A stretch of DNA of 35,265 bases, taken from Candidatus Bathyarchaeota archaeon (GTDB taxonomy: Archaea > Thermoproteota > Bathyarchaeia > Bathyarchaeales > Bathycorpusculaceae). The translations under genes were made by a program, and so were the position numbers. Where the stretch lies: assembly GCA_937873375.1 (NCBI GenBank), contig CALMWK010000157.1, forward strand, positions 1 to 35,265, in the 5' to 3' direction. The notes below the pieces were generated by a model. It saw nothing but the letters and a program-made list of their open reading frames with translations, searched no databases and was not told where the DNA came from. The stretch's first letter is position 1; every line of letters starts with the position of its first letter. Shown piece after piece: positions 22,978-26,451 of the stretch.

Positions 22978-23322
22978 ATGACAAAAAACAAGAAAGGAGA
23001 CAGCATTAAACTTGCAGCTCAAGCAGCCAGCCTAACGGGATTAATTGAGTACCAAGAAGGCTCAGTTGTAAGCAGAACATTAATTGACAAAAACGTCGGA
23101 ACCGTAACGCTGTTTGCTTTCGACGCAGACCAAGGATTAAGTGAGCACACTGCACCGTTTGACGCTATGGTTTACATTTTTGACGGCGAAGCAGAAGTTA
23201 CAATTTCAGGCAAAGCGGTTCGATTGAAGGCGGGGATGCTTACAGTTATGCCTGCTGGGGAACCACATGCTGTGAAGGCGTTGACGCGGTTTAAGATGAT
23301 GCTGATAATGGTCCGCGCCTGA
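22978..23322 (+). CDS. Small cupin-domain protein
   Basis: This 114-residue single-domain cupin has the two conserved barrel motifs: LSEHTAPFDAMVYIFDGEAEVTI and LKAGMLTVMPAGEPHAV. In the first motif only one histidine (SEH) is clear, so the usual H-x-H pair is incomplete, while the second keeps its histidine (EPH). Such proteins often bind a metal or sense small ligands; no reaction can be assigned. Start is ATG 22978 behind GAGGAC, with a TATA-like TTTATATT at about 22935. It lies directly before the dtxR-feoAB operon but is separated from it by a dedicated promoter and operator. Confidence 0.88.
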   Translation: MTKNKKGDSIKLAAQAASLTGLIEYQEGSVVSRTLIDKNVGTVTLFAFDADQGLSEHTAPFDAMVYIFDGEAEVTISGKAVRLKAGMLTVMPAGEPHAVKALTRFKMMLIMVRA

Positions 23323-23366
23323 TTAGTGTTCTTTTTTAATGCATAAAGCTTATTAGGCGCTTACCC

Positions 23367-23409
23367 CTCGTAAGTTACGAGAGCTCGTAAAATGTACGAG
23401 AACTCGTAA
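23367..23409. promoter_or_regulatory. Tandem inverted-repeat operator upstream of dtxR-feoAB
   Basis: Five half-sites alternate in orientation: CTCGTAA (23367), TTACGAG (23375), CTCGTAA (23384), TACGAG (23395) and CTCGTAA (23403), with spacers of 1, 2, 4 and 2 bases. A TATA-like AAGCTTATTA near 23346-23355 would start transcription around 23376, inside the array. Binding by the DtxR-type protein encoded next would block the promoter, as expected for iron-dependent autoregulation. The binder is inferred from position. Confidence 0.75.
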
Positions 23410-23430: not shown

Positions 23431-24102
23431 ATGTTGGAAACAGCATTATCTTATGAAGCTGAAGAATACATCGAAGTAATCTATCGCCTGCAAAAAAGAT
23501 ACGGAGTGGCAAAAACTAGCGAACTTGCAAAAAAATTACGGGTAGTCCCAGGTTCAATCACAAACACCATAGAGCACTTAGAAAGCCACGGGTTGGTAAT
23601 CCACGAACCCTACCGAGGTGTCAAATTAACCCGTGAAGGCGAAAAAATTGCCTTAGGAATTATTCGCAGACATCGACTCGCCGAAAGACTCCTCACAGAC
23701 ATCCTGAAAGCTGAATGGAGTACCGTGCATGAAGATGCCTGCAAACTTGAACATGCCATGACAAAAAACGTGGTCTCTCTCTTAGAGAAAAGACTGGGAA
23801 ATCCGAAGTGCTGTCCCCACGGGAACCCAATCCCCGCGGAAAATGGCACGTTCAAAGAAGAAAAATGCATTATGCTAACGGAAATTGAGTTGAATGAGAA
23901 CTGCACAGTGGCGCGAATAACGGATGAGAAACATGAAAACCTTGCGATTCTCGCGGAAGCGGGCATCAAACCCGAAACGCATATTTGTGTAATAGAAAAA
24001 AGCCCCACCAAAGTTGTTGTGAGCGTCAACGGGAAAGTAGTTTCTCTTGACCGGGAACTTGCCGAAAATGTGCGGGTTAAAAACAAACAGGAGGCTCAAT
24101 GA
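23431..24102 (+). CDS. DtxR/MntR-family metal-dependent repressor
   Basis: This protein of 223 residues has an N-terminal winged helix (ALSYEAEEYIEVIYRLQ, then KTSELAKKLRVVPGSITNTIEHLESHGLV), a metal-binding dimerisation domain (RRHRLAERLLTDIL, HEDACKLEHAM, CCPHGNPIP) and a C-terminal SH3-like domain related to FeoA. The Glu, His and Cys positions used for Fe(II) or Mn(II) binding in the family are present. It starts at ATG 23431; a GTG at 23425 is an alternative. A five-half-site operator lies directly upstream. Its stop overlaps the feoA start (ATGA), so regulator and transporter are one operon. It is most likely an iron sensor. Confidence 0.93.
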   Translation: MLETALSYEAEEYIEVIYRLQKRYGVAKTSELAKKLRVVPGSITNTIEHLESHGLVIHEPYRGVKLTREGEKIALGIIRRHRLAERLLTDILKAEWSTVHEDACKLEHAMTKNVVSLLEKRLGNPKCCPHGNPIPAENGTFKEEKCIMLTEIELNENCTVARITDEKHENLAILAEAGIKPETHICVIEKSPTKVVVSVNGKVVSLDRELAENVRVKNKQEAQ

Positions 24103-24410
24103 TGTTTGGCATTAAGCGTAATCATGAAAAAATCAAGCCACTCTTAGACTGCAGTGTTAAAGAAGTAAGCCTCGCAGACATGCAGGAAGGCGAAAAAGGA
24201 ATCATAACCCACACCATCGGTGGTCTTGGTGCGATGCATAGATTAGCAGAGATGGGACTAACTCCGGGCTGTGAAGTGAAACTTCTCAGAAAAGGTTCGT
24301 TCCATGGTCCAGTGGAAATTGAGGTTCGCTGTGCATGTCTCGCGTTAGGTTACGGCTTAGCTCTAAAAGTGTTTGTGCAACCAGTGAAGGCAAACGCTAA
24401 TGAAAACTAA
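24099..24410 (+). CDS. feoA: Ferrous iron transport protein FeoA
   Basis: This 103-residue protein has an SH3-like FeoA domain (SLADMQEGEKGIITHTIGG, HRLAEMGLTPGCEVKLLRKG, then GPVEIEVRCACLALGYGLAL). FeoA helps FeoB function at the cytoplasmic face. The start at 24099 overlaps the dtxR stop by 4 bases and follows GGAGG at normal distance; the ATG immediately after it at 24102 is equally possible. Two cysteines near the end (CAC) replace the usual pattern RVRG-like segment and are a little unusual. It ends inside the first bases of feoB. Confidence 0.93.
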   Translation: MMFGIKRNHEKIKPLLDCSVKEVSLADMQEGEKGIITHTIGGLGAMHRLAEMGLTPGCEVKLLRKGSFHGPVEIEVRCACLALGYGLALKVFVQPVKANANEN

Positions 24411-26451
24411 TCCTGCTAAAACCCCCTGTGCTTGCGGGAACCAGAGCGCTACTACCCCACCAACTCAAAAGGGATTCAAACGGGCAGATGAATTAACCAT
24501 AGCTTTGGCTGGAAACGCAAACGTTGGAAAAAGCGTCATCTTCAACCAGCTCACAGGCTTAAACCAAGTCACAGGCAACTGGCCAGGCAAAACCGTAGAA
24601 CGCGCCGAAGGCACCCTGTATTTTGAAGGCAAAAACATACGCGTCGTCGACTTGCCCGGCACGTATTCGCTTTCCGCGTATTCCATGGAAGAGATTGTTT
24701 CACGGGACTATTTAGCCATCGAAAAACCCGACATTATAGTTAACGTAGTGGATGCGTCAGCGCTTGAGCGGAACCTGTACTTGACGCTGCAGCTTCTGGA
24801 GCTGGAAGTTCCTCTGGTAATCGCTTTGAATCAGATTGATTTTGCAGCGAAAAAAGGATTGAAAATCGACACCGAAAAACTCTCCAAGGCGCTGGGCGTT
24901 GAAGTTGCGCCTACAGTAGCGGTTGCGGGCACGGGCATAACCGAGCTGCTTTCCACAGTTGTGACTGAAGCGTCTAAAGAAAAGAAGAGTAGAACGGTCC
25001 AACTTGTTTACGGTAAAGAAATTGAAGAGCGGATTAACGCAGTCCAAAGTTTGGTTGTCTCCAAGTTGCCTCAACTCTGCGCCACTTACCCCGCACGGTG
25101 GATAGCCATAAAACTGCTGGAAAAAGATTCGGATATAGCTGAAAAAGCAAGCGCCATCCCTGACGGAAAGGCAGTGTTGAAGCGTGTTGAAGAGTTAATT
25201 TCTGAGTTGGAGAAAGTGCACGGCGAAAACTCACCTGTAGTGGTGGCTTCTGAGCGGTACACGTTAGCCAGCAAACTCGCCAAAGACGCCGTCGTTATTG
25301 AGGCAAAGCCGAAAATCAGCATAGAACAAACGCTAGCAACAATTACCACCCACAAAGTGTTGGGATATTTGATTTTGGCAGGTGTTGTCGCCGCCACGTT
25401 TGCAGTTATTTTTGCAGGGGGCAGCTACCTTTCAGCTTTGCTAGACCAAGGACTCATGTGGTTGTCTGCGGGCTTTAAGGGTCTGCTTACGCCAGTTTTG
25501 CCTACCGTTGCCGTGGACCTGCTTGTAAACGGGGTGCTGGGCGGGGTCGCCGCGGGCATAACCATCGCGTTACCCTACATTGTACCATTCTACGTGATTT
25601 TGGCTCTACTCGAAGACAGCGGTTACCTACCACGGGCAGCTTTTCTCATGGACAACGTCATGCACAAAATCGGTTTACACGGAAAAGCTTTCATCCCGAT
25701 GATACTGGGCTACGGCTGTACTGTTCCCGCATGCATCGGCTGCAGAATCATGGAAACCCAACGAGAGAGATTTCTGAGCGCGTTTGTGGTTGTGCTTATT
25801 CCATGTGCTGCCCGAACAGTGGTAATTCTCGGGTTAGTTGGACGATATGTAGGGTTGACTGCTGCTTTAGCGTTGTATGCTTTCGATTTGGTCCTTGTTT
25901 TCGCGTTGGGCAGAATTGCGTTCAAAGTATTACCGGGCGAGCCTGTCGGCTTAATCATGGAAATGCCCAGTTACAAGAAACCTTCCCTCAAAACTTTAGC
26001 CATCAAAACGTGGAGTCGCACCAAGGACTTCGTGTATGTGGCGTTCCCGATAATCATCGTGGGAAGTATAATCATTGAGGCGTTTGCATTGTCAGGTTTT
26101 ATGCCTTACTTTGTGGATGCAGCCAGCCCGCTTATGACTTGGTGGCTGGGACTTCCCGCAATAGCAGCTATTCCCTTGTTATTTGGGATTCTGCGCAAGG
26201 AGCTAACGCTCATCTTGTTAGCCACAACCTTAGCGTCAATTGGCTTGGGCTTGGAGTCGCTCAGTGCAGTGCAGATGATTGTCTTCGCGTTGATAGTCAT
26301 GATATATATCCCGTGTCTTGCCGCCATAGCTGCGCTCAAGAGGGAGTTTGGGTGGAAAAAAGCAATCTACATAGCGGTGATTGACATCGGTCTTGCTTTG
26401 CTTATTGGTGGACTGGCATTCAGGATTCTAAGCATTTTCCTGCCTGCGTAG
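24400..26451 (+). CDS. feoB: Ferrous iron transporter FeoB
   Basis: This 683-residue protein combines a cytoplasmic G domain with the Fe(II) permease. The G domain holds G1 GNANVGKS at residues 38-45, the G3 motif DLPGTYSL, and NQID as G4; a helical linker follows. The membrane half has the two Gate regions, the first around [21 protein letters not shown] followed by [16 protein letters not shown], and the second around [17 protein letters not shown]. Conserved cysteines are present in the first gate. Two extra cysteines lie at residues 10 and 12, before the G domain. It overlaps feoA by 11 bases. With dtxR and feoA it forms a complete Fe(II) uptake operon. Confidence 0.96.

Follow-up and report, generated by a model that had tools for sequence, protein, structure and literature searches.

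The MDR1 repressor reportedly has several operators in its own promoter. Repression by MDR1, as cited in reviews, was reportedly described by Bell et al. in 1999. FetR-type archaeal DtxR regulons controlling feoAB are said to have been reported by Leyn and Rodionov (J Bacteriol). MDR1 of Archaeoglobus fulgidus is an archaeal metal-dependent DtxR homologue that blocks the recruitment of RNA polymerase, as described in parts of two reviews (PMC2995911, PMC4158304). The 19-bp DtxR/IdeR box, TTAGGTTAGSCTAACCTAA, consists of 5-bp half-sites, and a dimer spans either repeats 1 and 3 or repeats 2 and 4, according to one part of a further article (PMC8464063).

The window, that is, the whole stretch of 35,265 nucleotides analysed here, is contig 157 of the 2.0-Mb, 96%-complete genome of an uncultured archaeon. 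It carries a 43-base array of repeats, which very probably serves the DtxR-family repressor, whose gene lies just downstream, as a tandem operator; an occupied transcription start would block RNA polymerase, giving autoregulated iron uptake. The operator reading was obtained by computation, from the structure of the sites, their conservation, the distance to the TATA box, the linkage to the genes, the uniqueness of the sites in the genome and the family of the repressor. A DtxR regulator linked to feoAB and a palindromic operator are reportedly shared with the FetR-type regulons, and the layout of the locus, with the palindrome at the TATA box and start upstream of dtxR and with feoAB in the operon, is that expected of an autoregulated MDR1/FetR-like operon. 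The predicted repressor would, like MDR1 as far as those parts of the reviews describe it, bind beside the TATA box or over the start and block the recruitment of RNA polymerase. The operators of the window have the same 5-N4-5 geometry as the DtxR/IdeR box in the part of the article concerned, but the letters are TACGA/TCGTA instead of TTAGG/CCTAA; in the box as described there a further dimer site overlaps the first at an offset of 5 bp, whereas the units in the window stand side by side without such overlap. The system is a known kind with uncommon operator letters, and among the open-access papers listed in the searches none could be identified that describes a TACGA-type DtxR operator or a Bathyarchaeota DtxR operator.

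The repressor and its operon

The features of the locus are given below.

22978-23322: small cupin gene whose end directly precedes the dtxR promoter
23343-23356, + strand: predicted archaeal BRE/TATA from the sequence, ATAAAG followed by CTTATTAG (the latter at 23349-23356)
23367-23373, + strand: extra leftmost half-site CTCGTAA, private to this genome and unconserved
23375-23390, + strand: operator O1, TTACGAG-AG-CTCGTAA, core 23376-23389, over the predicted transcription start
23394-23409, + strand: operator O2, GTACGAG-AA-CTCGTAA, exact core 23395-23408, 19 bp downstream of O1
just upstream of 23431, + strand: putative ribosome-binding site AGAAGGTG, from the sequence
23431-24102, + strand: dtxR-family metal-dependent repressor, 223 aa, with wHTH, metal/dimerisation domain and C-terminal FeoA/SH3-like domain
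24099-24410, + strand: feoA (PF04023)
24400-26451, + strand: feoB ferrous iron transporter (TIGR00437, 520.8 bits, cut-off 315.65; PF02421)

The repressor matched PF01325 (63.9 bits) and PF02742 (98 bits), both above cut-off, as well as PF04023, and its gene is followed by feoA and feoB with overlapping ends. Its AlphaFold2 model had a mean pLDDT of 91.3, and its matches in the PDB by sequence and by fold were IdeR, DtxR and MntR proteins, Thermoplasma IdeR among them. The protein is a member of the DtxR/IdeR/MntR family. IdeR of Thermoplasma acidophilum (4o5v/4o6j) was the top full-length fold match of the model (TM 0.77-0.81), with an identity of about 30% to the repressor of the window. Named relatives of the repressor were Candidatus Bathyarchaeota records, and in its own genome it was the sole match at E<=0.001.

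Six primary and ancillary metal ligands, His81, Glu85, His100, Cys104, Glu107 and His108, were invariant in the 30 aligned proteins. From the sequence alignment with IdeR, we take them to be its H79, E83, H98, C102, E105 and H106. With respect to the iron and manganese subtypes, Cys104 is present as in the iron-like proteins, while the best NCBIfam model was of the MntR type at 143.9, below its cut-off of 350. The position of IdeR Met10 was occupied by Glu in the proteins of the repressor's own dtxR clade (A-type) and by Asp in nearly all those of a sister DtxR clade found at the dtxR-feoB locus (B-type); L023 and L030 were left out of this protein alignment.

Three further observations were made on loci of this kind. 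L006, the nearest relative, likewise has the end of the cupin gene ahead of dtxR. In L023 (genome G026) a frameshift and an in-frame stop interrupt the dtxR orthologue, with the operator and feoAB kept. G003, a 95%-complete genome of the same genus, gave neither an operator nor a DtxR-family match at E<=0.001.

The array and its conserved unit

The segment at 23367-23409 reads CTCGTAA-g-TTACGAG-ag-CTCGTAA-aat-GTACGAG-aa-CTCGTAA, with half-sites at 23367-23373 (CTCGTAA, + strand), 23375-23381 (TTACGAG), 23384-23390 (CTCGTAA), 23394-23400 (GTACGAG) and 23403-23409 (CTCGTAA). The first-pass annotation had described five alternating half-sites here; the alternation was confirmed and four of them are exact, but the fourth in order, GTACGAG, has one mismatch to TTACGAG. 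Since the spacers between the five half-sites are 1, 2, 3 and 2 bp, each adjacent pair forms a palindrome of some kind, and the CTCGTAA-N1-TTACGAG form occurred once exactly in the window with 0 expected. The most repeated 7-mer within 43 bp, counting either strand, had four copies in the array, compared with at most three for any 7-mer when the window was simulated 200 times with an order-1 Markov model. The half-site repeats in this segment exceed chance.

Which of these palindromes is the operator was read from conservation. Upstream regions were taken for 31 orthologues, each in the orientation of its gene, with L030 left out of the column statistics as a near-copy of L029 (hence n=30). 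From the class, 78 A-type upstream regions were used, being 78 of 81 match rows without G103 (5' end missing), G153 and G158; L043, from a different collection, was also left out of this analysis. TTACGAG-N2-CTCGTAA was present with at most three mismatches in 31/31 orthologue upstream regions, 19 of them perfect, compared with 1.0% of dinucleotide shuffles. The shorter core TACGA-N4-TCGTA was exact in 68/78 A-type upstream regions and within one mismatch in 74/78 (0.6% of shuffles at the same tolerance). When the spacer between TACGA and TCGTA was varied from 0 to 12 in the 78 regions, N4 accounted for the 68 and every other spacer gave zero. The conserved unit is TACGA-N4-TCGTA, extended in the window to TTACGAG-N2-CTCGTAA. 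The DtxR-family gene, feoA and feoB behind it and the wide conservation of the core support the earlier assignment of a DtxR-type operator that spans the predicted dtxR-feoA-feoB start.

The core also extended beyond the class. Among 20 upstream regions fetched from elsewhere in the phylum, 14 had the exact core, that is, 14/16 without family f42 and 0/4 in f42. Within the class, the four regions with no core within one mismatch (L113, L114, L117 and L118 of the 78) belong to proteins whose helices look the same as those of the others. The missing cores in these four regions and outside the class count against the operator reading. The canonical DtxR/IdeR half-sites were not found in the A-type set, in which TTAGG-N4-CCTAA was exact in 0/78 and within one mismatch in 1/78.

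Promoter position and proposed mechanism

In 25/31 orthologous upstream regions a TATA-like hexamer begins 20-29 bp before the first operator; in the window it is GCTTAT, 27 bp before O1. Archaeal promoters have a usual spacing from the TATA box to the start, and with this spacing the position of the TATA box places the predicted start inside O1. The distance from operator to gene was more variable than that from TATA to operator, ranging from 26 to 69 bp with the frameshifted L023 left out.

These distances also bear on the idea that the array acts as RNA, in the form of a 5'-leader hairpin that a protein, the ribosome or iron would read. The leader could fold into a nested hairpin of -18.2 kcal/mol, a weak folding (z -1.87) that was equalled in 7 of 200 shuffles. 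However, the site keeps a roughly constant distance to the TATA box and not to the start codon, its 16 columns are fixed in their letters with no covariation, and the single unit of most relatives would give only a 6-bp stem with a 4-base loop. No Rfam match was found up to E=1 either, and we consider an RNA role extremely unlikely.

For the DNA operator, we infer that the repressor binds with its metal at the transcription start and blocks RNA polymerase there. One metal-loaded dimer would occupy each inverted repeat TACGA-N4-TCGTA, with O1 over the predicted start and O2 19 bp deeper in the leader. The metal is presumably Fe(II), to judge from the conserved ligand residues and from the neighbouring feoAB genes. 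Fe(II)-bound dimers just downstream of the TATA box would prevent either the recruitment of RNA polymerase or its initiation. Once iron drops, the repressor would be released and dtxR-feoA-feoB transcribed, which would lead to more iron import and more repressor, forming a negative feedback.

Tandem arrangement and the extra half-site

The first-pass annotation had gone further and proposed at least three overlapping CTCGTAA-n-TTACGAG palindromes among the five half-sites, bound cooperatively by several dimers for a steep iron response. In its favour, the alternating half-sites are indeed present, and tandem units 19 bp apart were found in 5/6 loci of the genus. Overlap demands, however, that half-sites be shared, and conservation gave instead two non-overlapping N2 palindromes and one unconserved half-site; the N1 unit was not conserved either. 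When the upstream regions were aligned on the first operator, CTCGTAA at -8 to -2 was seen in 1/30, the window itself, and the final AA of this half-site coincides with an A-rich flank conserved in 25/30. It may be a chance or private addition.

The everted arrangement TCGTA-Nx-TACGA, the form used in the first-pass annotation, was present in 15/78 upstream regions at most (N3 in 4, N5 in 5, N8 in 6), chiefly in those with two tandem N4 units. In our own reading of the spacings, the N5 form would arise where units spaced at 19 bp meet, the N8 form where the spacing is 22 bp, and the N3 form where it is 17 bp and also from the extra half-site of the window. The overlapping palindromes are a by-product of tandem copies, and the overlapping model as a whole is very unlikely to hold.

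Most lineages have one site. In lineages other than this genus, three loci had a second site at 17 bp, six at 22 bp and one at 24 bp, some of these sites being degenerate, while a second site at the 5-bp offset was absent from the 78 A-type upstream regions. A spacing that changes with lineage between 17, 19, 22 and 24 bp argues against one conserved dimer-dimer interface, and such spacings accord better with dimers added independently than with a single, fixed interface. Support for the extra half-site, and for any cooperativity, is confined to this genome, and a steep response of the tandem operator is a guess. The tandem elaborates a familiar design in a lineage-specific way.

Occurrence of the operator in the genomes

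In the whole 2.0-Mb genome there were just two exact core sites, O1 and O2, so that the array does not recur before unrelated genes in its own genome, a recurrence that the first-pass annotation had named as evidence against its reading. In 90 genomes of the family, TTACGAG-N2-CTCGTAA within one mismatch was found at 34 places, 27 of them at the dtxR-feo locus, including all 22 perfect ones. This 16-mer was present at the same tolerance in 24/28 genomes with a close orthologue compared with 6/62 without one. Of the four orthologue genomes lacking it, G001, G007 and G063 have a site with two mismatches, and in G103 the 5' end of the gene is missing.

The scans gave no sign of further targets. 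In the genome of the window, sites with up to three mismatches numbered 44 on the forward strand against 54 for a reversed-pattern control, and in the 90 genomes the 7 one-mismatch places away from the locus were fewer than the 12 matches of the control.

The motif CTCGTAA-n(1-5)-TTACGAG, suggested earlier as a means of defining the regulon, was rejected in its N1 form, which occurred within one mismatch at 8 places in the 90 genomes, 2 of them at dtxR, and one of these two, in G022, is due to an overlapping N2 site.

A second element was seen in some loci. In family f1 (for example L011, L016 and L022), TTTATAAGnTTCG-N6-TTCG-N6/7-CGAAA lies just upstream of the TATA box; it is absent from the genus of the window. 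In the 90 genomes, 9 of its 15 exact places were at the dtxR locus, and it is perhaps the site of another regulator.

A sister clade with other operator letters

The B-type set comprised 18 fetched loci, part of the B-type proteins found in the same family, in which feoB follows dtxR in the same orientation. These DtxR proteins are more distant, at 27-33% over the aligned part. Exact TTAGG-N4-CCTAA was present within 200 bp in 18/18 B-type upstream regions, twice in 17 and once in one, while TACGA-N4-TCGTA within two mismatches was found in 0/18. In L086-L102 and L105 of this clade, two TTTAGG-N4-CCTAAA operators flank the TATA box; one adjoins the BRE, the other lies near the start.

This distribution bears on whether the palindromes might be the site of a repressor other than the linked DtxR protein. 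The further conserved element TTCG-N6-TTCG...CGAAA in 17/78 upstream regions suggests an extra regulator of this promoter. The palindromic site, however, goes with the A-type dtxR in different families and classes, and it is absent where the TTAGG-N4-CCTAA sister clade takes over, and the geometry of its half-sites is that of DtxR. We regard another repressor as highly unlikely.

The recognition helices of the clades differ as well, with a TNT-type helix in the A proteins and a TEM-type helix in the B proteins. At the positions of IdeR Pro39 and Gln43, Gly and Asn were found in 31/31 A rows and in 14/14 further rows with a TACGA core, Ala and Glu in 18/18 B rows, and Gly and Lys in the f42 rows. 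The recognition helix of L181, a TACGA row, reads INT and not TNT. Four proteins with the TNT helix (L188-L191) and one f49 protein (Ser and Asn) lacked the exact core, and these count against a simple code between helix and operator. In a quick tree with many weak forks (L192 left out as a duplicate of L175), the TTAGG rows formed one clade with a support of 99 and the number of TACGA origins was not resolved; with the TTAGG rows as one clade, A against B is essentially one contrast and not many independent events. It is possible, though somewhat short of an even chance, that two DtxR clades at the same feo locus read orthogonal operators of identical geometry, with a few residues of the recognition helix setting the switch.

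If such a switch is true, DtxR specificity would be a direct-readout code; for IdeR, indirect readout was argued in the part of the article concerned (PMC8464063). With two natural operator specificities that share one geometry, a helix swap could show whether DtxR proteins read bases or DNA shape. For the organism, the analysis provides a computationally well-supported operator for an iron regulator of many uncultured archaea, with a regulon of one operon in this genome.
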